The position numbers and the translations under genes were made by a program. 32,158 nt of DNA, taken from the NCBI GenBank assembly GCA_016124735.1, contig WGMZ01000020.1, positions 1-32,158 on the forward strand. Direction: 5' to 3'. How positions within the stretch are numbered: position 1 is the first letter of the stretch; the number at the start of each line of letters is the position of its first letter. This DNA comes from Bacteroidota bacterium (GTDB lineage: Bacteria; Bacteroidota; Bacteroidia; UBA8524). Below, one piece after another: positions 15,446-27,899 of this stretch. The notes below the pieces were generated by a model that worked only from the letters and a program-made list of their open reading frames with translations, was not told the DNA's origin and searched no databases.

Positions 15446-18400
15446 ATGAAAATTTTCAACAAAACGACCTTTGTCGTCGGGCTCTTCATGCTCTTATCGC
15501 AATGGAGTTCGGGACAAAACCCTGTCACCATCGGGACAGGAACCTCAACCCAAAGGTACCCATTTGGTGCATATTGGGGTTATGAACGATCAGCCGCTAT
15601 CTACCAGGCATCGGAAGTCAGCCGTTCAGGCGTTATCGACAAACTTTCCTGGTATTTCACAAGCACAACAAGCGGAACCTATGGTATCCGAATCTATCTG
15701 AAACAAACCTCAAACAACAACTTCCCGTCTTCTACTACTTACGCTTCAGAAGCAAGCAATGCTAAGTTGGTTTATGCAGACAGTGGAGTGGCGCCTACAT
15801 CCGGGGGGTGGTTCCAATTCACATTAGATGATACCTTTAATTACTCCAATTCATCGAATCTTCAGGTTATTGTAGAAATGAATACCGGAGGTACGGGCAT
15901 AAGTAATTCCACCAGTGTTCGTTACACCTCCACTTCATCATCGGTTACGAATACTATGCAAAACTGGACTGCGGATAATAATCCGCCCACATCAACGGGT
16001 TCTACAAACAGTAGCCGTCCAAACATTCAGATTCATTTCGTACCCGATCCACTTCCGGATTTGAATATCCCTTCCGTGCTCAGCCCGAATTTTGCCGGCT
16101 GTAATTCCAGCACCTACGATTTGCAGTTTCAGATTGGCAATAGTGGCGGTGCCGCGGTGAGTTCTGGAAAGTATATCCGTGTTGGATATACGCTTAATAA
16201 TGGCAACGAAGTCATCGATTCATTTCAATTAAGCTCGGATCTTGCCATCAATGGCTCTGTAAACCACACAATCAATGGGATCTCCATTAGTGGTATTACA
16301 CAACCGAATTTTAAAATTTGGGCCAATATCGATGCAGATGATATTCATTCAAACGACAGTACAACTTTCAATGTAGTCAACCCGAATTGTATCGGAACCA
16401 ATTATTCCAGCGATTTCGAAGGAACCGATGGAGGTTGGGAAACCAATGCTTTGTGGGTGAATGGTGCGGTCAATAAAGGCAGTTTGAACAACCCACCAAG
16501 CGGTACCGACGGATGGATAACCGATGCAAGCAACAATTATCCAAACAATGCCAATGCCAGCCTGTATTCTCCATACTTCGATTTCAACCAGGTATGTACT
16601 CCTGTTTTCTCCTGGCAAATGCGCTTTATTACTGAGAACAACTGGGATGCTGTAATTCTCGAGGCCAGCACTGACTTTGTCAACTGGACCAAGGTAAGCA
16701 CCCTGTCACCCGGCTATAATAACAATAGCAACAGTGGACCCTTGGCTGCTCCTAAATTCTCAGGAAACAACAATTCATGGACGCTTTACCAGGCAGATTT
16801 ATCTGCTTTCAAAGGAAATACAGTACGCCTTCGTTTTCGTTTCGGATCGGATGGAAGCGGCACAAATCCCGGAGTTGCCATCGACGACGTCGACATGCTC
16901 ATGTTTCCTAACTACAATGGAGCAGGGATGATTGTTCCGGACACCATGATTCAAAATGCGATTTACGACACCGAAATCAGCTCCACTTCTACACCAATCA
17001 CAGGAGCTAAATTCGACTGGAAACTGGATGGCACCGTAATCGGAACCGATCAGGATTTAGATTACAGTTTCCCAAATACAGGAACCTTTACCCTTACACA
17101 CCGGGTACTCGATGCCTGCGGACTCGTGCTCGATTCCGTAAATAAAAGCATTGTAATCATTGCTCCGACTGCTATTCCAACTCCTGATTTTGTGGCAGAT
17201 GCCAACGTAATCAGTCAGTTTGGAACAGTGAATTATACCAACCTCACCGGAAATGGAGCTTCTTATTATGAATGGTACGTCTCTCCTGCCATTTACATTG
17301 ATCCACAAACTCAATTGCCTCTGCCTTCCGTATCTTACGGGAACAATACAACGGCCTATTCTAAATCTCCAAGCATGGACTTTTTTGGAACCGGTAATTA
17401 TGATGTATGTCTGATTGCCGAGAATGCCCTTGGACGCGACACTTTGTGTAAAACACAATATATCCTCGTTGGAGGAGGTGCAGCAGGAGGCGATTCGGTT
17501 ATGTGCTCTGGAACCAGCATGGATGCGAATACCCATACCATGGGACATATTTATGATCCGGGTGGCCCCAATGCAAACTACGGAAATGGACTCAACTGTA
17601 CCTTTACCATTGATTTCTCATGTTATGATTCTCTGGTGATGGGATTCAACTCCTTTAACCTCGAAGACAATTATGACTTCCTGCATATTTACGACGGAGA
17701 TCAAAATTCAGGTACGCCATTGTGGGATATTTCTGCATTTCCTAACGGCCTCACCAATACCACCATCCAAAGCTTAAATGTGGCGACCAGCGGATTGGTT
17801 ACTCTTGTATTCTCTTCCGATCCTTCAGTGAACAGACCCGGATTCGAATTGGAATACGAAGCCAGAAACCAGAAAACAACTATCGCAGCATCTTTCGATG
17901 TGCCTGATTCACTTTGTCAGAACTTCCCGGTAACCTTTAATAGCACAAGTACCAATGCAAAAACATTTGCGTGGGACTTTACTGGAAGCGGAATATTTGT
18001 GTCCAACACTGGACAACCCACCTTTACTTATTCAACGCCCGGAACCTACGATGTGAAACTGGCTGTTTCAGGTTGCGCCGGAGTTGACACATTCACGAAA
18101 ACTGTAGTGGTAAGAGCAATTGGATCGAATGCAGTCGATTTTGCAGCAGACTATACCACCTATACCATTCATGATGAGGTGGTAATCAAGGACATGACAC
18201 ATGGGTGTATTTCAGATTACCAATGGGTGATAGAGCCGGCAGTTGCAACATTTTTGAACGGCAGTGACAAAACAGCAGAAGCTCATGCAACCATTACAAC
18301 TCCAGGTTACTATACAGTAAAACTCTTCACCACCAACTCGGCAGGCACCGATTCTCTTGTAAAAACGAATTATCTGCATATTGTTAATATCTGCAAGCCT

Positions 18401-20020
18401 TCCGTTGGAACAAACCTGGCAGATATGGGAATCAGCCGTGTGGTATTTAATGATATCGACAACTCAAGTCATCCAGATGATGGTTACTTCGACTTTGCAG
18501 ATCAAAAGACCACGTTGATGAAGGGCAAAGTATACGATATCACCGTTTACCGCCCATCCACTTCCAATGAGATCAGCCGAAAAGTCTGGATTGACTACAA
18601 TGGAAATGGTGATTTCAGCGACTCAGGCGAATTGGTGGCTTACGAAGCCGCGGCACGAACACTGTCCTTTACCTCCAGCATAGGAATACCCAGAAGTGCG
18701 ATGAATGGCATGGTAACGATGCGCGTAGCCACATCGTACCGGAATCAGACAAACGACCCATGCGGTACCCGCACCTATGGTGAAACAGAAGACTACCGCG
18801 TGATTCTGGTACCAGATCAAATCAAACCGATAATCACCTTGAATGGAGCAGACACAATCACCATCAACCGAAACGACAGTTATACAGAACTGGGCGCGAC
18901 GGCTACCGACAATTTAGATGGAAATCTGACGCCATTTATCATGATTACTCAAAGTATTGATACGTCCATTGCCGGAACCTATACCATTTCTTACGATGTA
19001 ACTGATACGGCTGGAAATGCGGCAAATACAGTAACCCGTATTCTGATCATTCTTCCGGATGCGCCGTTTATGAATTTGAATGGATTGAACCCAGACACTC
19101 TGGACGTATTCCAATCATACGTCGACCCCGGCGTTGTGGCTTTGGACTTTAACAATCAAGCTTTGGCAGTAATGGTTCAGAGTAATTTGGATTCCTCACA
19201 GCTTGGCACGTATACCATTACTTATACTGCAATGGACGTAAATGGAAGAAGTTCCAGTGTTTCAAGAGATGTGGTGGTGGTAGATCGCGTCAAACCCACA
19301 GCCATCCTGAATTCCTCGGATACTGTAGTCGTTGAAGTCTTCGGTCCGTATAACGACCCGGGCATTCAAATCAGCGACAATTATTGCAGCAGCGGAAATC
19401 AGTTCACGACCAACTCGGTTGACATTGCAACTTTAGGTTTCAAAACACTTATCTATACCTTCAGCGATTGCAATGGCAATACCGATAGTATTAGCAGGGT
19501 ATTGAAAGTAGTAGATACAGAGGCTCCTGAGATTCATTTGAAAGGAGACATCACTGCAAACACAATCCGCCAGCACGATTACATCGACTCAGGTTATGTG
19601 GTTACGGATAATTATGATCCGGAAGCCAATATTACCGTAGAGACGATTACAACTCTTAACAGACAATCGCCCGGACTCTATACTTTACAGTATAAAGCAA
19701 CCGATGCTTCCGGTAATGTTTCCTACAGTGAAAAACGTTTCATCTATGTATTAGACAACGTTGGTTTGGCACCGCTTGCCGACAGCAAACTGACTGTATA
19801 TCCAAACCCGGGAACAGGTGTATTCAACCTTTCAACCGATGCATTCAGTGGAGAGGTAACTCTGCATGTCTACGACATGTTTGGAAAAGAAGTAAAAGTA
19901 CAGCAGTTGGATTTCCACCAACAAGGCATTAGCGACCTCACCGGTTTAGCTAAGGGCACGTACATCCTGCGTCTGACACAGGGAGAACGTTCTGCCACTG
20001 CGCACGTAGTGCTTCAATAA
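15446..20020 (+). CDS. Modular secreted protein with MAM-like, CUB, PKD, GEVED and Ig-like domains; T9SS type A signal
   Basis: A 1524-aa exported protein with a signal peptide ending near SSGQ (residue 24). In order: an N-terminal beta-rich domain (about 25-200); a CARDB-like segment (about 205-310); a MAM/jelly-roll-like domain (about 320-490, with FSWQMRF and AIDDVDM); PKD-like modules (about 495-680); a CUB domain (about 685-805, CTFTIDFSCYDSL, YDFLHIYDGD, LVFSSD); further PKD modules (about 815-980); a GEVED domain (about 1055-1130, WIDYNGNGDF, GETEDYRV); four bacterial Ig-like (DUF5011-type) repeats (about 1130-1440); and a type A T9SS tail (VYPNPGTGVFNLS, VYDMFGKEV, GTYILRL). No catalytic domain is recognisable. 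A surface adhesin or binding protein is likely. It is a monocistronic unit with a strong terminator. Confidence 0.92.
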   Translation: MKIFNKTTFVVGLFMLLSQWSSGQNPVTIGTGTSTQRYPFGAYWGYERSAAIYQASEVSRSGVIDKLSWYFTSTTSGTYGIRIYLKQTSNNNFPSSTTYASEASNAKLVYADSGVAPTSGGWFQFTLDDTFNYSNSSNLQVIVEMNTGGTGISNSTSVRYTSTSSSVTNTMQNWTADNNPPTSTGSTNSSRPNIQIHFVPDPLPDLNIPSVLSPNFAGCNSSTYDLQFQIGNSGGAAVSSGKYIRVGYTLNNGNEVIDSFQLSSDLAINGSVNHTINGISISGITQPNFKIWANIDADDIHSNDSTTFNVVNPNCIGTNYSSDFEGTDGGWETNALWVNGAVNKGSLNNPPSGTDGWITDASNNYPNNANASLYSPYFDFNQVCTPVFSWQMRFITENNWDAVILEASTDFVNWTKVSTLSPGYNNNSNSGPLAAPKFSGNNNSWTLYQADLSAFKGNTVRLRFRFGSDGSGTNPGVAIDDVDMLMFPNYNGAGMIVPDTMIQNAIYDTEISSTSTPITGAKFDWKLDGTVIGTDQDLDYSFPNTGTFTLTHRVLDACGLVLDSVNKSIVIIAPTAIPTPDFVADANVISQFGTVNYTNLTGNGASYYEWYVSPAIYIDPQTQLPLPSVSYGNNTTAYSKSPSMDFFGTGNYDVCLIAENALGRDTLCKTQYILVGGGAAGGDSVMCSGTSMDANTHTMGHIYDPGGPNANYGNGLNCTFTIDFSCYDSLVMGFNSFNLEDNYDFLHIYDGDQNSGTPLWDISAFPNGLTNTTIQSLNVATSGLVTLVFSSDPSVNRPGFELEYEARNQKTTIAASFDVPDSLCQNFPVTFNSTSTNAKTFAWDFTGSGIFVSNTGQPTFTYSTPGTYDVKLAVSGCAGVDTFTKTVVVRAIGSNAVDFAADYTTYTIHDEVVIKDMTHGCISDYQWVIEPAVATFLNGSDKTAEAHATITTPGYYTVKLFTTNSAGTDSLVKTNYLHIVNICKPSVGTNLADMGISRVVFNDIDNSSHPDDGYFDFADQKTTLMKGKVYDITVYRPSTSNEISRKVWIDYNGNGDFSDSGELVAYEAAARTLSFTSSIGIPRSAMNGMVTMRVATSYRNQTNDPCGTRTYGETEDYRVILVPDQIKPIITLNGADTITINRNDSYTELGATATDNLDGNLTPFIMITQSIDTSIAGTYTISYDVTDTAGNAANTVTRILIILPDAPFMNLNGLNPDTLDVFQSYVDPGVVALDFNNQALAVMVQSNLDSSQLGTYTITYTAMDVNGRSSSVSRDVVVVDRVKPTAILNSSDTVVVEVFGPYNDPGIQISDNYCSSGNQFTTNSVDIATLGFKTLIYTFSDCNGNTDSISRVLKVVDTEAPEIHLKGDITANTIRQHDYIDSGYVVTDNYDPEANITVETITTLNRQSPGLYTLQYKATDASGNVSYSEKRFIYVLDNVGLAPLADSKLTVYPNPGTGVFNLSTDAFSGEVTLHVYDMFGKEVKVQQLDFHQQGISDLTGLAKGTYILRLTQGERSATAHVVLQ

Positions 20021-20040: not shown

Positions 20041-20073
20041 AAAGGCCGTCCCGATTTCGGGGCGGCCTTTTTT
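20041..20073 (+). terminator. Strong rho-independent terminator of the T9SS type A gene
   Basis: A 13-bp stem (20041-20053 with 20058-20070) contains a single T-G pair and closes on an ATTT loop. A T-run follows, starting inside the stem base. It begins 20 bases after the stop codon. Confidence 0.95.
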
Positions 20074-20077
20074 GTGG

Positions 20078-20100
20078 TATGGGCTCCCTTCTTTTAAGGA
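20078..20100 (-). other. Orphan copy of a lipoprotein gene leader
   Basis: These 23 bases match 21225-21247, the leader just before the start codon of the lipoprotein gene at 20329-21222, with a single mismatch and in the same orientation. In that gene the segment holds the Shine-Dalgarno AAAGGAG. Here no start codon follows; on the minus strand the copy runs straight into the terminator at 20041-20073. It looks like the remnant of a deleted paralogue or of a misplaced duplication. Bases 20101-20278 show no gene I trust. Confidence 0.65.
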
Positions 20101-20284
20101 TATTGGTTGTATAAATTAGTTAAGGAGATGACGTCTATGACGTTGTATGTCAATTTATGGAAATTGAAAGTTTATGACCTCTTGTTGCATGTTTTAAAAT
20201 GGGAGAATGAGACCTCAAGATTAAAGGTGCAACGATTAGACAGAGCTCCTCCTTTAAGCTTGTTGGCTTTTTATTCCATAAAAA

Positions 20285-20305
20285 AACCCCGACAAAGTCG
20301 GGGTT
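20285..20305 (-). terminator. Terminator of lipoprotein paralogue 1
   Basis: AACCCCGAC (20285-20293) pairs perfectly with GTCGGGGTT (20297-20305) around an AAA loop. On the minus strand a T-run follows (20286-20281). The CCCCGAC core is shared with the terminators of paralogues 2-4. Confidence 0.92.
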
Positions 20306-20328
20306 CATTTTATCCCTTAAAGAAAATT

Positions 20329-21222
20329 CTATTCTACAGTATAATTCTTTTTAATACCGCCAGGCAAAGTAATGACAATATCATTATCACATTTTCCGTC
20401 GCCGAAATCAACGGATAGGGATGTGGTAGACCCGTCATTCTTCAATTCCACTACTCCGGAAATGCATGTTTTGGAACAAGTTGGATCCACTTTGCTAACC
20501 AGATCTTTTGTGATAGAGACGGTGTATTTTTTGCCGCTGTGGTTTTCCCCTGCTGAACTTCCGGAAAGAGAATAGACATCATCCTTTGTACCGGCAGTTT
20601 TCACTCCATCCGTTTGAGTAATTTCATATTTACCAGTCGGCACATAGGAATATTGTGTTTTACCATCGAGTTGAGATTTCAGAGTGAAATTGTAACTCAC
20701 ACTGAATTTATCGCTTGCCGTTCTTTGAATATAGAGACTATCCATATCACCAAATACTAATTCACAAACAGCCTCATCCCAATCTTTGTCTTTCTTCCTT
20801 TTCAAATTTATTTGGGAATGATCTTTTCCAATCCACACGGCAGAGCCGATTTCATTGAATTTTTTCTCATTGGAATAGACGGTAAAGGAACCGCCCCGCT
20901 TCCAGCCGTCACCACATACAACACCGGTATCTAAGTCGATAGTGATTTCGATTCCATCGCCATCTGTGAAGATGGTATCCTTATAAGTGATTTTAACGCC
21001 GTCTGGCAAGATGGTATTTCCATTTTTACCGAGAAAACCTTGCGTTTCACCAATGTCTTGCAATAAGTCGGTCATTCCCGAAATGGCTGTCTGGTCTGTA
21101 CTGAAATCCTGAGCAGACTCAGAGGTTTGTGTAGCGTCTTGCAAAACTTTTTCACAGGAAGTAGTAGCAAGCATGGCTATGCCAATAGCAAGTATAATTC
21201 CTGCATTCACTATTTTTTTCAT
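20329..21222 (-). CDS. Lipoprotein paralogue 1 (TDGDG / DFGDGxCDN family)
   Basis: A 297-aa lipoprotein. The signal peptide has a lipobox ending at C23 (ATTSC), followed by EKV. Family landmarks: an alpha-helical N-terminal part, ILPDGVKITYKDTIFTDGDG (about 70-90), a DDVYSLSGSS segment, CSKTCISG, and the C-terminal VDFGDGKCDND followed by a GGIKKNYTVE-type last strand. No named domain is recognised. It is one of five paralogues in the array at 20329-27768. The start is fixed by AAAGGAG at a good distance before the ATG. A weak -7-like CAACTTTG lies at 21262-21255. It lacks the TCGAGGCC upstream site found in the other four, so its regulation may differ. Function unknown; anchored to the inner or outer membrane through its lipid. 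Confidence 0.88.
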   Translation of the reverse strand: MKKIVNAGIILAIGIAMLATTSCEKVLQDATQTSESAQDFSTDQTAISGMTDLLQDIGETQGFLGKNGNTILPDGVKITYKDTIFTDGDGIEITIDLDTGVVCGDGWKRGGSFTVYSNEKKFNEIGSAVWIGKDHSQINLKRKKDKDWDEAVCELVFGDMDSLYIQRTASDKFSVSYNFTLKSQLDGKTQYSYVPTGKYEITQTDGVKTAGTKDDVYSLSGSSAGENHSGKKYTVSITKDLVSKVDPTCSKTCISGVVELKNDGSTTSLSVDFGDGKCDNDIVITLPGGIKKNYTVE

Positions 21223-21224
21223 GA

Positions 21225-21262
21225 TATGGGCTCCTTTCTTTTAAGGATGATGCACAAAGTTG
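21225..21262 (-). promoter_or_regulatory. Leader and -7-like box of lipoprotein paralogue 1
   Basis: On the minus strand CAACTTTG (21262-21255) is one mismatch from TAnnTTTG. The leader that follows contains AAAGGAG before the ATG. The part 21225-21247 is the segment duplicated at 20078-20100. Confidence 0.4.
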
Positions 21263-21462
21263 TGAAAAAAATAGAAATGCCGGGTACCTGTATTCCGGTA
21301 ATTCTATAAAGGAATCCTGAATTCGTCTATGTTCGAAGGTTTATGGTTCAGAATGATTGCCTCATATCAACTAAGCCGCTCCGTGAAAAGACGGGTCTTT
21401 TCTTTTTCGACTTTACCACAGCCTCCGTTCTAATCCTCAATACTCATCCTCATTCCCTCAAA

Positions 21463-21487
21463 CAAAAAAGCCCCGACAAACGGGGCT
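21463..21487 (-). terminator. Terminator of lipoprotein paralogue 2
   Basis: AGCCCCG (21469-21475) pairs with CGGGGCT (21481-21487) around the loop ACAAA. On the minus strand TTTTTTG follows. It belongs to the same hairpin family as the terminators of paralogues 3 and 4. Confidence 0.92.
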
Positions 21488-21508
21488 ATGTAAGCAGATA
21501 GTGATTCG

Positions 21509-22408
21509 TTAATTTATTTCGATTGTTTTTTTAGTAATTCTGGTATTACCCTTATATACTGTAACGTCGACCTTATTGTCGCAATCACCGTTTCCAAAAT
21601 CAGAAACTGCTTTCAGGGAACTTCCTGTCGTTTCCAGAGTGTATTTGCCTGAAACGAATGTTTTCGAGCATGAATCCGACTTTAAGACCAATGTTCCATC
21701 CTGGGAAGTAGTAATCGTTTTATTATTCTCCGTTATCTTCAAGCCAAAATCCTTGAATTCATATTGATCGTCACTGTTTTTATCCGGAGTTGAATATCCC
21801 ATAGTTTGAGTAATGATAGGTGTTCCAGTTAAAGAAATATCATAAGTTACCATGGGATTAACAGGACGCTCTACTTGATAATAAAGGGAAACTATCGCAA
21901 TTGTATAACCATCTCCATCTGGTGTTGGTTGTAAATTCCATTGAGAATTTATAATTCCATGCCCACTCCTTGACCTTATTTCTCCTTGCACTAAAAAAGT
22001 GTAACTGTAGCACCCATTCAGGAAAATCCTATTGCCTATATCAAAAGTAATTTTTACTTTTCTTGCAGAGCCGTCTCCACAATCCACCAGGCTGTCATTG
22101 TTATTCATGTTCTGTCCCCCAAAACCAACCACAAATTTTACTCCCGGATTCCAACTGCTATCAATCCAATTAATAGTTGCGTCTCCGTCGGGAAAGATAT
22201 GATACGTTTGCATTTTGTGCAGAGCAGGGGTATTGAGCACAATATCTACCAGTAAGTTGTTCATCTGGTTCATTTGGTCCTGTACATAGGCAACATCCTG
22301 GGTTGCCTAAACCAATTCTTCCGCTTCCTTCTTGGGGTCTCCAACCTTATTGCATGCAACGCTGGTTAAGACCAATGAAGCAATGAAGGAGAAAATTAAT
22401 TTTTTCAT
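21509..22408 (-). pseudogene. Lipoprotein paralogue 2, interrupted by an in-frame TAG
   Basis: From the ATG at 22408 the frame reads a lipoprotein signal peptide (MKKLIFSFIASLVLTSVAC, lipobox Cys at codon 19) and KVGDPKKEAEELV. It then meets TAG at codon 34 (22309-22307) and continues in the same frame with ATQDVAYVQDQ, followed by 254 more residues from 22273. Those residues carry the family landmarks: IFPDGDATINWIDSS, SCSKTFVSG, and DFGNGDCDN near the end. The TDGDG motif of its paralogues is lost (WNPG instead). Restart at 22273 would give a protein without signal peptide or lipid anchor. The gene was intact as a 299-codon lipoprotein until recently. A sequencing error at one base is the main alternative. 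Confidence 0.85.
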
Positions 22409-22435
22409 TGTGATATGATTTAAGGAGTAATATTT

Positions 22436-22491
22436 CAAATTAACAATAATCAGGACTTACCGATCAGGTTTGCAGGCCCCGATTAAGCCTC
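22436..22491 (-). promoter_or_regulatory. Promoter and 11-bp-period direct repeat of paralogue 2
   Basis: On the minus strand GAGGCT (22491-22486) and GGGGCC (22480-22475) lie 11 bases apart, followed by TTAATTTG (22443-22436), one mismatch from TAnnTTTG. The spacing of 39 bases between the proximal repeat and the -7 box is the same as in paralogue 3. Confidence 0.5.
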
Positions 22492-22554
22492 GTTCATCTC
22501 AACGAATTGATAGATATTTAGAGTTGTCTGTAATTTTATAACTGCGGAATTAAA

Positions 22555-22577
22555 AAGGCCCCGACGAGCGGGGCTTT
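22555..22577 (-). terminator. Terminator of lipoprotein paralogue 3
   Basis: GCCCCG (22558-22563) pairs with CGGGGC (22569-22574) around ACGAG. On the minus strand a short T-run follows after one C. The stem is identical to that of paralogue 2. Confidence 0.88.
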
Positions 22578-22598
22578 CAATGCTATTTGGGAATAAAC

Positions 22599-23642
22599 CT
22601 ATTTAAGAGTGAAATCCGTTGCGGGGAGGTTTCCATATTTAATTGTGCCTTTGGCATCGCAGGATCCGTCTCCAAAATCAATTATAAATTTTTTACCTGA
22701 TGAAACAGTGAGCGTAAAGGCACCTTTAACGAAAGCACTCGTTGCTGTGCAAGAAAAATCCTTCACAAGGGGTTTACTATCATCAATAAGCATAGTGTAG
22801 GCTTTATCGTCATTATCAAATCCGGAAGAACTTCCTTTGATTTCGTAAATATCATCATTGGTATCAACAGTGGTATTTCCTGCGGTTTGAGATACACTGT
22901 AATTTCCAGTATACTGATAATTTCCATGATAACTAAAATCTGACCAATTCGATTTAATGATCCTGGAAGAATAATCTAGCTTTAAAGTTGTTGGATTTTT
23001 TCTTGAAATAGTAAGAAATGGTGCAGGCACAATCACATATTTTGGAGCTCCAGGAGCCGTATTAAAAGTACTATCCTTTACCTTATTATCATTTGTGAAT
23101 GCATAAGCTACCCCTCCACTTTGAAATACCATGGGAAGGGTATACCCGTCCACAGTGTATCCTCCAGCATTTTTATTCAGTAAAAGTCCCTGACTAACTT
23201 GAATCACCAGACCATCTTCGTTGTATTTCTTATTAGCCTGTATGCGGACAGTTCCTGCATAAAAGGTTCCATTCATAGATTTAATAAAATCATTAAAAGA
23301 CAATTTACTTGCCTCTATATCTTCGACTTTAATATTTGAAAATTCCACTTGAAAATCGATTCCATTTCCATCGGTAAATACAGAATCAATCCAGGTGATT
23401 TCAACCCCATCGGGAATGATAGCGTACCCCCCTGTTTTTAGCATGTTCGGATCGTTTTGCATTACATCTTTTGCCAAATCTGCCAATGCAGAGAAAGTTT
23501 GCTGTGTTCTTGAATAGTCTTCCATTCCAGCCTCTGCGTCTTTGGTGTCCTGGACCGGATTAGTTACTTTATCGCAGGAGCTCAAGGCAATCATTCCTGC
23601 GGCAGCCGCAGAAATCATCAGGTGTGTCAATTTAAATTTCAT
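22599..23642 (-). CDS. Lipoprotein paralogue 3 (TDGDG / DFGDGxCDN family)
   Basis: A 347-aa lipoprotein, the longest of the family. The lipobox ends at C23 (ALSSC), followed by DKVTNPVQD. Landmarks in order: NDPNMLKTG, IIPDGVEITWIDSVFTDGNG (about 80-100), a middle beta-rich part, DDIYEIKGSSSG, a SCTATSAFVKG segment, and IDFGDGSCDAKG near the C-terminus. The frame is open 36 codons further upstream, but the signal peptide begins at the ATG at 23642, and the upstream part holds the promoter and direct repeat, so I use 23642. It is closest in its N-terminal half to paralogue 5 (shared NDPNM, WxDSVFTDG). Function unknown; its own promoter and terminator make it an independent transcription unit. 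Confidence 0.88.
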   Translation of the reverse strand: MKFKLTHLMISAAAAGMIALSSCDKVTNPVQDTKDAEAGMEDYSRTQQTFSALADLAKDVMQNDPNMLKTGGYAIIPDGVEITWIDSVFTDGNGIDFQVEFSNIKVEDIEASKLSFNDFIKSMNGTFYAGTVRIQANKKYNEDGLVIQVSQGLLLNKNAGGYTVDGYTLPMVFQSGGVAYAFTNDNKVKDSTFNTAPGAPKYVIVPAPFLTISRKNPTTLKLDYSSRIIKSNWSDFSYHGNYQYTGNYSVSQTAGNTTVDTNDDIYEIKGSSSGFDNDDKAYTMLIDDSKPLVKDFSCTATSAFVKGAFTLTVSSGKKFIIDFGDGSCDAKGTIKYGNLPATDFTLK

Positions 23643-23668
23643 TATAATGGGGATTTTAAAATAAAGAA

Positions 23669-23724
23669 CAAAGATATATGCCCACGCAGTTAAACAATAT
23701 TTGTGTAGGCCTCGAATAGGCCTC
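23669..23724 (-). promoter_or_regulatory. Promoter and GAGGCC direct repeat of paralogue 3
   Basis: On the minus strand two perfect copies of TCGAGGCCTA lie 11 bases apart (GAGGCC at 23724-23719 and 23713-23708). A TTG follows (23697-23695), and after 18 bases TATCTTTG (23676-23669), an exact TAnnTTTG match. The repeat sits just upstream of the -33 region, a position typical of activator sites. Confidence 0.65.
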
Positions 23725-23821
23725 GATAAAATCAATTGACTGGTAATCAATATTATAGATCTTATTAAACCTATTATTCATTTGAACAGGTGAGATTTTA
23801 ATGAGACAAAATAATCACAAT

Positions 23822-23850
23822 AAAAACCCCGACAAGCAAGGCTCTTTTTC
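23822..23850 (-). terminator. Weakened terminator of lipoprotein paralogue 4
   Basis: On the minus strand GCCTTG (23842-23837), loop CTTGT and CGGGGT (23831-23826) are followed by TTTT. It is the same hairpin as in paralogues 2 and 3, but three of its six pairs are now G-T wobbles, so it should terminate poorly. It lies about 130 bases after the stop codon. The rest of the 339-base gap between paralogues 3 and 4 shows no gene. Confidence 0.5.
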
Positions 23851-23981
23851 TCTCCCCTTATTGCCATTGATCTTATAATAGCAAAAACTCTATGGCACAC
23901 TTTTGTGCCAGGGGAGCACAATGACTATCGCTCGGAAAGGTATGCATTAGCCTTTCACCTGGGATAGATTCGATACTGCAA

Positions 23982-24941
23982 TTATTTGATAGTTATGGTC
24001 TTTTTCACCCCACCGGGAAGTTCCACATTAACATCATTATCGCAGGTCCCATCACCAAAATCTGCCTTAAGGGTAAATTTCGATCCGTTATTTTTCAACT
24101 CCATCTTCCCCTTCACAAATGTATTTGAACAACCAGGTGTTAGTACTCGTCTTAATGTATCGGTAACTGTAAAAGAATAAACCGTCCCTTGTCTATTTTT
24201 GCAATTGGCGGCTGTTCCTGTTACCATCATCTGATCATCTAATAATCCTTCTGAACCACCGTCTATGGTAGCAACATGAAAGGTCCCAACATTGTATGTT
24301 TTTCCTCCCACGTAAGATTCAGTCAATTTACGTTTGACGAAGCTGAAATTATAGTCGATATCCCAAGCATCGGCTCCTGTGCGGCTGATTATGCATTCGT
24401 AACTGCCGGAGCCTCCGAGTTTTTTATTTCCATCATCAATTAGATACAGGGTACCCTCCTTTAAAATGATATATCGATCCAGTTCCAAATTGATGGTGCA
24501 ATTTGGGTCCGAATAGGGTAAGTCCATTCGTATGCGTCCGGAACCCCAACGTGTGGCGCCATCACCACCCTTGGAACCTGTGCCGGCCGCTGGATTATCA
24601 AAAATTGAAAGATACGGATAATTCGGATTATCAGGGTCCTCGAACTCAAATAAAATGACTATACCATCACCATCCGTAAAAACCGAGTCATCGTTTTTAT
24701 AGCTAAAATACTCCCTTGAAATAAAAGGGTTCCCATTTTTCATTTGCAGGTTGGGATCCGAGCTGACTATGTCTTGTAAGGCATCGGTCAAAGAAGACAC
24801 CGCTACCATATCCGAGGCCATATCTTCCGCTGAATCGGTCGTTTCAGTGGCGTCACTAATTACCTTCTCGCAAGCTGTGAAAGCAAATGCGATCACAACG
24901 AGCCGCGCCATTGCGCTAAGCTGTTTGGAAAAACCATTCAT
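23982..24941 (-). CDS. Lipoprotein paralogue 4 (TDGDG / DFGDGxCDN family)
   Basis: A 319-aa lipoprotein with a lipobox ending at C24 (AFTAC), followed by EKVISDATETTDSAEDM, nearly the same opening as paralogue 1 (EKVLQDATQTSESAQDF). Landmarks: SSDPNLQMKNG, then DSVFTDGDG (about 82-90), a glycine-rich middle part, DDQMMVTGTAA, CSNTFVKG, and ADFGDGTCDNDV with GGVKKTITIK at the end. Paralogues 1 and 4 share the EKV opening and the LPGG(I/V)KK ending, so they appear to be sister copies. The start is supported by TAGGAG a few bases before the ATG. Function unknown. The weak terminator may allow read-through towards paralogue 3. Confidence 0.88.
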   Translation of the reverse strand: MNGFSKQLSAMARLVVIAFAFTACEKVISDATETTDSAEDMASDMVAVSSLTDALQDIVSSDPNLQMKNGNPFISREYFSYKNDDSVFTDGDGIVILFEFEDPDNPNYPYLSIFDNPAAGTGSKGGDGATRWGSGRIRMDLPYSDPNCTINLELDRYIILKEGTLYLIDDGNKKLGGSGSYECIISRTGADAWDIDYNFSFVKRKLTESYVGGKTYNVGTFHVATIDGGSEGLLDDQMMVTGTAANCKNRQGTVYSFTVTDTLRRVLTPGCSNTFVKGKMELKNNGSKFTLKADFGDGTCDNDVNVELPGGVKKTITIK

Positions 24942-24970
24942 GTCTTACTCCTATTTATTAAATAATCAAA

Positions 24971-25027
24971 TGAAGATAGGATAAACCCTACAATGCCACA
25001 AGGAATACAGGGCCTCGAAAAGACCTC
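24971..25027 (-). promoter_or_regulatory. Promoter and direct repeat of paralogue 4
   Basis: On the minus strand GAGGTC (25027-25022) and GAGGCC (25016-25011) are 11 bases apart. TTG (25001-24999) and TATCTTCA (24978-24971) follow after 20 bases; this -7 box is a partial match to TAnnTTTG. The arrangement mirrors that of paralogue 3. Bases 25028-25217 contain nothing I can identify. Confidence 0.5.
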
Positions 25028-25217
25028 ACTACTTTCATTAAGTTGATTTTCAGTCAATTAAAAATAATGGATGGTTTCAAGTTCGGTTCCCTTCAATCCC
25101 AGAGAATGGAATAGGTCAAAGGAGAAGGTACGGAAAAGATACCAGGGTATGGTGAAAAGGTAGGTGGCAATTCCGATTACTCGTTGGAAACCACAAAACC
25201 CTTATTAGCCCTTTAAA

Positions 25218-26600
25218 TCAATCTTTTCCCCAGAGCCTTCGCCACCAACCTCTGAATCCTCCTCCACCATAATTGTCTTTATGCATGGTGCGGTAAATAG
25301 GTTTGTTCTTGAGTTCTTCCAGGTTTTTCTTTTCTCTTGCCGCCAGCTCCTGATCCATGTAGCGACATTTCTCTTTGTCTTTACACACATAGAGATTGAG
25401 TTCTCTGTCCAATACAAACTCCATCCCGGAAACTATGATCAGGGAATCGGCACCATTTTTAAAATCTATATCCGCTGCTCCCGTATGAAAAGATCCACCG
25501 GTGAGGTAGGCCAGATTGAGGTATTGGGGATTGACAGTCCAATCGCCATCGGCAAGAATCACAGCGACAGGGTGTTTGATCTGATCCCAGAGATCGAAGT
25601 CGCGGATCATGGAATTATCTGCGACCAAGATGAGTTCCTGATAGTCTTCATACTTCTCCATGGATTTGATAATAGCCTCGATATCATTCTCTGGCATCTC
25701 TCCTCCCAAACCCTTGCGCATGGCGGTATTGAATACACGGACCACCTTGTTCATATTATCTGAGCTACCGAAATAAATGCCTCCGGTTTCTCCCAACTTT
25801 TTCTCGTATTCCCATTTGGCGTCCCCATCGTTGAAAAAGGCAAAATATTTTATTCCCGATGTGTCAATATTATCGAGATGCCAGGCCAGGCATTGGGCGG
25901 AATATTGGTACATGCTGCTGGTCCAGTCGATGACTACTAAAGCATTGTTCCATTGTTTGTTTCGATCAAAGGCCTTATAAACACTGGAATCAAGCATGCC
26001 GCCAGCATTCCTCATGTACCGATCCACCCTACGTTTTACCCCGCTGTAATCCGGGGGAGCACCTGCCGCCAATTCCGCAGCCCTTTTCGCTTCCTTTTCT
26101 TTGATCTCCTTCTTTGTTAAGGGCCGGTACTTTATCAATATTCCATGATAGAGCTTTTTGGCTTCCTCTTCTGTATCGCAAGCGGTTTCCAAAACAAGAT
26201 TGAAAACGATATTCATGTCGTTCAACTCGGGATCAATATCAAATAAGGTCTTAAGTCGGTTGGCCAATAACTCGTAGTAATTCGTTTGCCAGAAACTAAA
26301 GTCTTTAGGGTATTTGCTAAACACCAGCGACACTTCCAATGGCAATATCGTTTCCTTTACCTGGTACCAGGGTTCGGCATTACTTATTTCATATTTCGCA
26401 TAACCGTTCTCGAGGCTCACCGTGTTTTTTAGGTAAGCTGGGTTGACCTTTTTGGTGATTTGAATTTTAAAAAGACCTTCAATCTCCCGCGCATGGGCTT
26501 TGGGATTGTTTAACAATTCGGCACTAAAACGCTCCTTCCTTTGTCCCTGAACAAGACATACGCATAGCAGGGAAAAGCTTAGGATTAGTGCGCGAATCAT
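25218..26600 (-). CDS. Exported protein with a VWA-like domain
   Basis: A 460-aa protein with a signal peptide (MIRALILSFSLLCVCLVQGQ) and no convincing lipobox. The N-terminal part (about 25-200) is not recognised and includes a charged KEIKEKEAKRAAE helix. The C-terminal half looks like a von Willebrand A fold: ALVVIDWTSSMYQYS (D225-x-T227-x-S229, a variant of the metal-binding DxSxS), FAFFNDGD, and ELILVADNS, with strand/helix alternation. The protein ends in a basic, Gly- and Trp-rich tail (GGGGFRGWWRRLW). It lies inside the lipoprotein array, on the same strand, between paralogues 4 and 5. A role as a periplasmic partner of these lipoproteins is inference from position only. No terminator is seen after it. 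Confidence 0.75.
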   Translation of the reverse strand: MIRALILSFSLLCVCLVQGQRKERFSAELLNNPKAHAREIEGLFKIQITKKVNPAYLKNTVSLENGYAKYEISNAEPWYQVKETILPLEVSLVFSKYPKDFSFWQTNYYELLANRLKTLFDIDPELNDMNIVFNLVLETACDTEEEAKKLYHGILIKYRPLTKKEIKEKEAKRAAELAAGAPPDYSGVKRRVDRYMRNAGGMLDSSVYKAFDRNKQWNNALVVIDWTSSMYQYSAQCLAWHLDNIDTSGIKYFAFFNDGDAKWEYEKKLGETGGIYFGSSDNMNKVVRVFNTAMRKGLGGEMPENDIEAIIKSMEKYEDYQELILVADNSMIRDFDLWDQIKHPVAVILADGDWTVNPQYLNLAYLTGGSFHTGAADIDFKNGADSLIIVSGMEFVLDRELNLYVCKDKEKCRYMDQELAAREKKNLEELKNKPIYRTMHKDNYGGGGFRGWWRRLWGKD

Positions 26601-26708
26601 GGTGCAAATATCTTCTTATTGGGTGGCTCTGGCAAATGCCAGCATCACAAAGAGAACGGAAGGCCCTTTCCTTTATTTCATCCTTCAGACTTATTAAGAG
26701 CATAAAAA

Positions 26709-26730
26709 AACCTGCTCTTTAGAGCAGGTT
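26709..26730 (-). terminator. Terminator of lipoprotein paralogue 5
   Basis: AACCTGCTCT (26709-26718) pairs perfectly with AGAGCAGGTT (26721-26730), with a tight loop. On the minus strand a run of seven T follows. Its sequence is unrelated to the terminators of the other paralogues. Confidence 0.92.
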
Positions 26731-26757
26731 TTCATTTAATATTCTAAGATTTAAAAC

Positions 26758-27768
26758 TTACAGCTCAACCTCTTTGGTAATCTTGCTCACGGTAATCTTC
26801 ACCTTATTGTCGCAGGTACCATCACCATAATCAATATCTGCAGTCTTGGCTGCTTTAAAAGTTAACGTTCCCTGGACCGGGATTTTTGCACAGGTTTTTG
26901 ACTTAAGTATCAGGGGAGTATTAATCGTGACATTGTAATTGCCATCTTGATCTCCATCAGATTCAGAAGCTCCTGTTATATTGTAAACGTCGTCCAAAAT
27001 GTCGCTGGTGGAGGCACCTTCAGTTTGATTTATAGTATAATTTCCAACTACAGTGCCCCGATAAATTGCTCTGAACTCGAATTTATCCAAATCGGCCCAT
27101 TCAATGCCCAAAGGAAAGTAGCTCACATTAGTTTTTATTTGATTTACATCTTCTCTTGTTACCCGGATCAAATTATAATTATATGCCTGGTTTTCAACCC
27201 CGTAAAAATTGGAATCCGCAGCTGCACTTAGCTTATCGACATAAGCCTTTTCAGTTGGGCCGGAAACTGCGATAGAAACATTACCCATCATTATAAGATC
27301 ATCCCCTTGATTTGGATGCATATAAAACACTCCACCTACAGCAGAAACAAACAACTGAGCGCCCACTTCATCCATGTGTGAAGAAGCATAACAAAGCAGC
27401 TGGCCCTTCACTAAGCCTCCATCCTGCGTTGAAAAAACTTTAGCCGAAAAATCACTTGCAAGTGTATCTAAAGTCCCCAAATCGATTACAAAAAGCACTC
27501 CGTCCCCATCTGTAAATACAGAGTCGAACCAAACCACTTTTGCCTCGTCTGGAAGATATCCATAGGTAGTTCCCTTCTTTTGCATATTGGGGTCGTTATT
27601 GGCCACATCCATCACCAAATTCGTCAGGGCAGTTTGAGCAGTCTGATCTTTCGAGTATTTTGTTGCTGCCTTTTGTGTCGCGGTGATGTCATCTACCGGG
27701 TTTGAAAGCTTGTCGCAAGCTGCAAAGAGAAAAAGCAATAAAATTGCTGGAAGTGTATATTTTTTCAT
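26758..27768 (-). CDS. Lipoprotein paralogue 5 (TDGDG / DFGDGxCDN family)
   Basis: A 336-aa lipoprotein with a lipobox ending at C18 (LFAAC), followed by DKLSNPVDD. Landmarks: NDPNMQKKG, YLPDEAKVVWFDSVFTDGDG (about 70-90), a long middle region, DDVYNITGASESDGDQDG (a second acidic, possibly calcium-binding stretch), TCAKIPVQG, and IDYGDGTCDNKV close to the end. It is closest to paralogue 3. It is the first member of the array in the direction of transcription and is followed, after its own terminator, by the VWA-like gene. Function unknown. Two conserved cysteines, shared with the paralogues and ~30 residues apart, could form a disulphide in the periplasm or outside the cell. Confidence 0.88.
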   Translation of the reverse strand: MKKYTLPAILLLFLFAACDKLSNPVDDITATQKAATKYSKDQTAQTALTNLVMDVANNDPNMQKKGTTYGYLPDEAKVVWFDSVFTDGDGVLFVIDLGTLDTLASDFSAKVFSTQDGGLVKGQLLCYASSHMDEVGAQLFVSAVGGVFYMHPNQGDDLIMMGNVSIAVSGPTEKAYVDKLSAAADSNFYGVENQAYNYNLIRVTREDVNQIKTNVSYFPLGIEWADLDKFEFRAIYRGTVVGNYTINQTEGASTSDILDDVYNITGASESDGDQDGNYNVTINTPLILKSKTCAKIPVQGTLTFKAAKTADIDYGDGTCDNKVKITVSKITKEVEL

Positions 27769-27839: not shown

Positions 27840-27845
27840 GGCCTC
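27840..27845 (-). promoter_or_regulatory. Single GAGGCC site upstream of paralogue 5
   Basis: On the minus strand TCGAGGCC lies 72 bases before the start codon, the same place as the proximal half of the direct repeat in paralogues 2-4. The distal half is not conserved here, and no clear -7 box is seen at the expected position. Confidence 0.4.
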
Positions 27846-27899
27846 GATTTGAAGAATTTACTATTTATAACTTGTGTATCCGTTTATTTCCCTCAAAAC

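Follow-up and report, generated by a model that had tools for sequence, protein, structure and literature searches.

Proteins exported by Bacteroidota carry general O-glycans at the sequon D-(S/T)-(A/I/L/V/M/T) (PMC12871550), and an extended form of the motif also allows S, G, F or C at the third position (PMC8729774). In this phylum, O-glycoproteins reside mostly in the periplasm and the membranes, and most of their sites face the periplasm (PMC12871550). For lipoproteins carried to the cell surface, the minimal export signal in C. canimorsus is C-x-K-(D/E)2 (PMC5080379). The lipoproteins described here resemble the general O-glycoproteins in being exported and in holding D-(S/T)-(A/I/L/V/M/T) at one fixed position within a predicted loop; they differ in that a glycan is present in the described proteins (PMC12871550, PMC8729774), whereas here the sequon is read from sequence alone.

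The window analyzed is the whole 32,158-nucleotide stretch (positions 1-32158), which represents the entire contig C15 of the assembly, so that the surroundings beyond mfd are cut off. Its minus strand carries five homologous lipoprotein genes, A-E (Table 1). The first-pass annotation had described a tandem array of five paralogues on one strand. The homology and the common strand were borne out; as an array, however, the group is broken up by gene V, unrelated in sequence to A-E, and one of its members is damaged. Owing to an in-frame TAG at codon 34, gene B is an interrupted copy; the stop lies after the lipobox, and the open reading frame listed from 22273 begins at a later Met and lacks the lipobox. 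The listed frame of gene C begins at TTG 23750 and not at the ATG that fits the lipobox. A search for family remnants between the array genes found none.

Table 1. Features of the lipoprotein array and its surroundings (positions in the window).
Feature	Position	Strand	Remark
Terminator-like hairpin after A	20284..20306	-	
Gene A	20329..21222	-	Intact lipoprotein, 297 aa; of A-E nearest to single-copy relatives
Sequon D82-T-I in A	20971..20979	-	Start of the acidic motif of the first-pass annotation
Terminator-like hairpin after B	21469..21487	-	
Gene B	21509..22408	-	Interrupted by in-frame TAG, open otherwise; most diverged copy
In-frame TAG, codon 34 of gene B	22307..22309	-	
Degenerate direct repeat GAGGCTTAATCGGGGCC upstream of B	22475..22491	-	
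Terminator-like hairpin after C	22558..22574	-	
Gene C	22599..23642	-	Intact lipoprotein, 347 aa; ATG at 23642 fits lipobox
Sequon D86-S-V in C	23379..23387	-	
Direct repeat GAGGCCTATTCGAGGCC upstream of C	23708..23724	-	11-bp spacing
Terminator-like hairpin after D	23822..23846	-	
Gene D	23982..24941	-	Intact lipoprotein, 319 aa
Sequon D85-S-V in D	24681..24689	-	
Direct repeat GAGGTCTTTTCGAGGCC upstream of D	25011..25027	-	
Gene V	25218..26600	-	460 aa, non-family, secreted, VWA-like; between D and E
Gene E	26758..27768	-	Intact lipoprotein, 336 aa; between mfd and V
Sequon D82-S-V in E	27517..27525	-	
Half-site TCGAGGCC upstream of E	27840..27847	-	At -77

Pairwise BLASTP comparisons of A-E gave E-values from 9e-42 (A-D) to 9e-10 (B-D). 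This similarity exceeds chance, since whole-genome searches with one paralogue or a profile return the other copies. Within the genome of the window (G000), a profile of the five copies matched A-E, one distant copy on a different contig, and nothing else. The alignment of A-E contains 19 invariant columns, including the lipidated Cys, a DD pair, two later Cys residues and the DxGxGxCD end. Of the motifs noted at first pass, the lipobox C-[DEN]-K-[VL] (CEKVL, CNKVG, CDKVT, CEKVI and CDKLS in A-E), the DD segment and the D(F/Y)GxGxCD end are present, as is a Cys before (V/I)xG. Two others were less general than reported: the TDGDG motif occurs in four of the five copies, gene B having SSWNP--GV at that place, and the context of the conserved Cys reads CISG in gene A instead of FV(K/Q/S)G. 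The contrast of conserved ends and a diverged middle was confirmed. The middle of the mature proteins, 97-143 residues long, is the least conserved part, with a mean identity of 18.5% against 33% in the C-terminal third and 37-42% in the N-terminal parts.

A further gene and a repeat of the contig lie close by. On the plus strand, convergent with the array, positions 15446-20020 encode a 1524-aa secreted protein with PKD/HYR-like repeats and, judged by eye, an apparent T9SS C-terminal sorting domain. A 34-base direct repeat, 88% identical, has one copy at the terminator of this large gene (20068-20101) and the other at the start-codon region of gene A (21215-21248).

The copies belong to a family that spans the class Bacteroidia. 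A ten-sequence profile (A2) detected members in 216 of the 296 Bacteroidia genomes sampled, and in 126 of 166 genera; in a draw of 247 genomes from the phylum, 37 had a member, just three of these lying outside Bacteroidia. Genomes often hold one or two copies, with up to eight matches. Members are ~265-350 aa long and share a plan of lipobox, helical part and strands with IDFG, DD-Y-x-I-x-G and DFGxGxCD. A-E match a 51-row profile across almost the whole length of the profile (E 1.7e-61 to 2.5e-24), although it included A, C, D and E; membership was checked without this bias by a profile of the five copies alone, which recovers distant members. No characterized families emerged for the five from these profile searches.

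None of the libraries searched has a name for the family, which lacks both a Pfam or NCBIfam model and a solved relative. Scanning the proteins of the window against Pfam, NCBIfam and PADLOC gave nothing above cut-off for A-E; SusD_RagB, the domain of Sus-type (SusD) lipoproteins, was not matched either. Against Pfam and NCBIfam, the 51 members gave weak matches only, to Myco_19_kDa, BamJ and PG1828. The first of these, PF05481 (LpqH family), shares a short hairpin-like stretch, ITGxASG..G..F, and was matched weakly by 18 of the 51 members; one member reached E 4.4e-5. However, the matches fall at varying places and on varying parts of the profile; none of 119 genomes held a match over the cut-off, and copy C scored 15.9 against the required 23 bits. 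No convincing PDB sequence match was obtained for the family. The two profile matches of members that were displayed in full, to an isomerase and to BamM, cover just the signal peptide and the first ~60 residues. An internal duplication was also considered and set aside, as just 12 columns (IDFGxxxC) match between the halves, too short to claim. Searches for family relatives on viral contigs and on plasmids found none, and the family motifs were not found in print in a literature search.

Canonical members, for example the single copy at C12:168240-169046 of the same genome and its syntenic relatives, share with the array the lipobox, the helical N-terminal part, the IDFG strand, DD-Y-x-I-x-G, the invariant Cys pair, the D(F/Y)GxGxCD end and, in most members, the sequon before strand 2. 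The array copies differ from them in the loss of the first Cys pair, the presence of the TDGDG loop and a longer, far more variable middle.

The origin of the array was addressed by synteny and by a tree of 56 family members. In the related genomes G001, G004 and G003, the V orthologue adjoins one, one and two family genes, respectively, and in G001 and G004 mfd lies on the other side of V. In the tree, A-E form one clade (100/98) beside the copies of the same locus in G001 and G004 and one from G003. At a separate syntenic locus, G000, G001 and G004 have distant copies, which make up a clade of their own. From this monophyly and the separate clade of the distant copies it follows that A-E are local duplicates; their inner branching order is unsure because of the long branches. 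The ancestral order was probably mfd, the VWA-like gene, and one or two lipoprotein genes.

The array diverged two to five times faster than the relatives' copies at the same locus, with summed branch lengths, read from the printed tree, of ~1.5-3.8 for A-E versus 0.7-1.3, gene B having the longest branch. The lipoproteins are ~54-56% identical between G001 and G004, yet mostly 25-37% between the window and G004. Gene V, used as a rate control, shows no speed-up in the window (74.1% identity to G004, versus 72.8% between G001 and G004). At the mfd-V locus the middle changes fastest: G004 and G001 share 47% of residues there versus 64% in the C-terminal part, and the middle falls to 12-23% between the window and G004.

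Tandem pairs or triplets recur in families f5, f12, f15 and f41, and no other tandem run in the 24 multi-copy genomes examined is as long as that of the five array copies. In the f12 pair beside a helicase-nuclease gene, too, the copies differ most in the middle, a pattern weak or absent in other tandem groups. This pair directly follows the helicase-nuclease-like gene in five related genomes (L146-L150), and its identity by region is 39-65% within a copy type and 27-45% between the two types. The ~980-residue gene before the f12 pairs was taken first for a transporter; in our own reading it is a helicase-nuclease.

The flanks of several copies also share features. Genes B, C and D are preceded by GAGGYCTWTTCGAGGCC-like direct repeats with 11-bp spacing, the proximal half lying ~71-75 bases before the start codon. 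Allowing three mismatches, the window contains three matches, upstream of B, C and D, and no others, with 0.14 expected. In the 3.1-Mb genome there are two perfect matches, upstream of C and D, and the weaker ones elsewhere are at background level. The repeat has been kept while its flanks diverged. The hairpins after A-D are similar in sequence; the one after E is different. Together, the repeats and terminators would fit the copying of a unit that brings its control region along, and perhaps a common regulation, though they prove neither.

Diversification has a serious rival in the drift of redundant copies, because gene B is already broken. One copy, or the distant genomic copy, may do the work while the surplus copies drift towards loss. 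The in-frame stop and longest branch of B, the distant syntenic single-copy member in the same genome and a stop-bearing family copy in another genome (G113) are all consistent with such relaxed constraint. Yet A, C, D and E remain open across 297-347 codons and retain the lipobox, both C-terminal Cys residues and the sequon; change is focused in the middle while the ends are held, and the upstream repeat survives between diverged flanks. We treat relaxed constraint as possible but somewhat doubtful.

The side of the membrane on which the proteins act bears on a second alternative, in which they would be surface-exposed lipoproteins whose variable outer loops are under diversifying selection for phage, predator or ligand recognition. 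The lipobox, the fast local divergence and the variable length of the middle are compatible with it, as is a weak likeness in shape to the surface lipoprotein OspA (Z ~7), a score that nevertheless lies inside the background range of the tool. The surface exposure suggested at first pass is not supported by the C. canimorsus signal C-x-K-(D/E)2 (PMC5080379), which follows the lipidated Cys in none of the five array copies and in 5 of 47 family members, though export signals differ among species. No SusD_RagB protein (PF07980) was found in the array's own genome, so the local export signal has no calibration there. Given the missing signal and the mostly periplasmic sites of O-glycoproteins, a periplasm-facing position is a little more likely, and diversifying surface loops appear rather unlikely.

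Structure prediction suggests that the copies share a scaffold. AlphaFold2 models of A (pLDDT 77.7, pTM 0.77) and C (pLDDT 65.9, pTM 0.68) place the same elements in the same order, a long N-terminal helical part followed by antiparallel strands (17 in A), so the two predicted folds are not unrelated, in line with the common scaffold proposed earlier. Strand and non-strand states agree at 267 of 288 aligned positions (93%); the agreement is not independent, since one shallow alignment of the same ten sequences lies behind both models. Foldseek reached E 0.1 at best, and the structural aligner a Z of 9.9 with an rmsd of 6.4. The aligner listed outer-membrane barrels (Z up to 9.9, rmsd 5-7), Borrelia OspA and the lipid-transfer domains of oxysterol-binding-related proteins (ORP; Z 6-7, rmsd 3.7-5.5). 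With these the predicted models share a long antiparallel beta-meander; they have no sequence relation to them, and the structural scores are near background. In our reading the predicted fold is a long meander for which the searches gave no relative, and the absence of a matching solved fold is no evidence for a new one.

The curved sheet and helix could also be seen as an incomplete barrel with a lid, that is, a carrier of lipids or other hydrophobic ligands. The lowest-rmsd likeness is indeed to the ORP lipid-transfer domains, at Z ~6.4-7.1 with rmsd down to 3.7-4.1 over 155-160 residues for model A and Z ~6-7 with rmsd 4.5-5.5 for model C, and one strand face is more hydrophobic (p 0.04). 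However, Foldseek gives these domains an E of 0.19 at best, porin barrels score higher, and Z below 8 is common according to the tool's own note. A lipid-carrier role, proposed from predicted models, would be unlikely.

All 51 aligned and all 49 held-out members have Cys 239 and Cys 267 (L095 numbering), an invariant pair that all five array copies share. A second pair, Cys 79 and 104, occurs together in 37 of the 51 members, is absent from 14 and is never represented by a single Cys (p 8e-13, kinship ignored); among the held-out members, 34 have both, 3 one and 12 neither (concordant in 46 of 49). Being present in 37 of 51 members and absent from the rest, this pair does not define the family, and it is absent in the array copies and the locus relatives. 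The simplest reading is that of two disulfides, of which the array would retain the C-terminal one alone.

The acidic DSVFTDGDG motif had been proposed as a possible calcium-binding site, a proposal that the comparison does not uphold. Its acidic residues, D-x(4)-D-G-[DN]-G, are conserved in four of the five copies and in the locus relatives. Against a calcium site, the EF-hand/dockerin loop D-x-[DNS]-x-[DNS]-G was not found at the motif in A-E; the only DxDxDG string among the five is in E, at residue 271, far from the motif. TDGDG is limited to the subfamily of the mfd-V locus and its nearest relatives, and is missing from B and from most of the wider family, which keeps D-(S/T)-x at the same place. 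Calcium binding through this loop is thus very improbable.

What is kept across the family is a sequon. Within the motif loop, 38 of 51 members have the strict O-glycosylation sequon and 43 the extended one, and 40 of 49 held-out members have the strict form. In the array, A, C, D and E carry the strict sequon, and B, with DSS, the extended motif only. At the site, 44 of 50 third residues fall within the strict set (T, L, I, V and A were seen), versus 19 of 69 for D-(S/T)-x at other places in these proteins (p 2e-11); the held-out members gave 51 of 54 versus 39 of 101, and the p values of these contrasts are inflated by kinship among members. Overall, sequons are not enriched in the family proteins (63 versus 77 expected); one site alone stands out. 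A folding constraint could instead hold the third residue. The D-(S/T)-hydrophobic motif is probably a glycan site, although a sequon alone is no proof of a glycan.

The neighborhood offers little on function. Gene V is secreted, has a MIDAS-like D-W-T-S-S motif recognized by eye and no Pfam match, and is ~50-81% identical to the relatives' orthologues, which are conserved neighbors of family genes. V relatives occur in 56 of 197 Bacteroidia genomes. Within the order, four genomes hold both V and the family, and in each of them V adjoins the lipoprotein gene or genes; in the genomes outside the order that were compared by contig it does not lie beside the lipoprotein gene. The linkage therefore looks like local synteny, and V was rejected as a functional partner. 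Across 44 loci there was no class-wide conserved functional neighbor, most conserved neighbors being housekeeping genes common to close relatives, so that no partner hints at a function. An array of immunity lipoproteins against toxins of neighboring bacteria, suggested by diversified tandem copies of an anchored protein, is scarcely credible, given that no toxin gene was recognized nearby, PADLOC gave no match, and the family occurs in most of the class at 1-8 matches per genome.

We favor the explanation that a single lipoprotein of a Bacteroidia-wide family was amplified in tandem in this lineage specifically. The copied unit was probably a cassette of upstream direct repeat, gene and terminator. 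The product would be anchored by lipid. Behind the lipidated Cys, a helix would lead into a long meander of antiparallel beta-strands, which the two invariant Cys residues would close with a disulfide near the C terminus; a glycan would probably sit on the D-(S/T)-hydrophobic sequon, in the loop before strand 2. This evolutionary and structural part of the explanation we consider likely. How the protein works is a more tentative matter. Its anatomy and the pattern of divergence suggest a binding scaffold with variable middle hairpins, the most likely mode being a periplasm-facing, membrane-anchored one in which these hairpins contact a ligand or partner. Duplication and fast change of the middle may then have produced copies of differing specificity while B decays, and the different binding faces imagined at first pass would follow; we hold this ligand-binding step to be doubtful.

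A lipoprotein present in about three quarters of the sampled Bacteroidia genomes thus stands without a library model or solved relative. On a bolder view, which we offer as speculation with the odds against it, this would be a class-wide family of glycosylated lipoproteins with an undescribed beta-meander, in whose arrays a binding face may diversify rapidly while the glycan stays on a fixed loop of the conserved part. The conserved sequon makes a direct prediction on O-glycosylation in Bacteroidota. The array itself is a natural experiment: four intact, strongly diverged copies stand beside a slow-changing neighbor, which allows the conserved scaffold to be told apart from the variable part.
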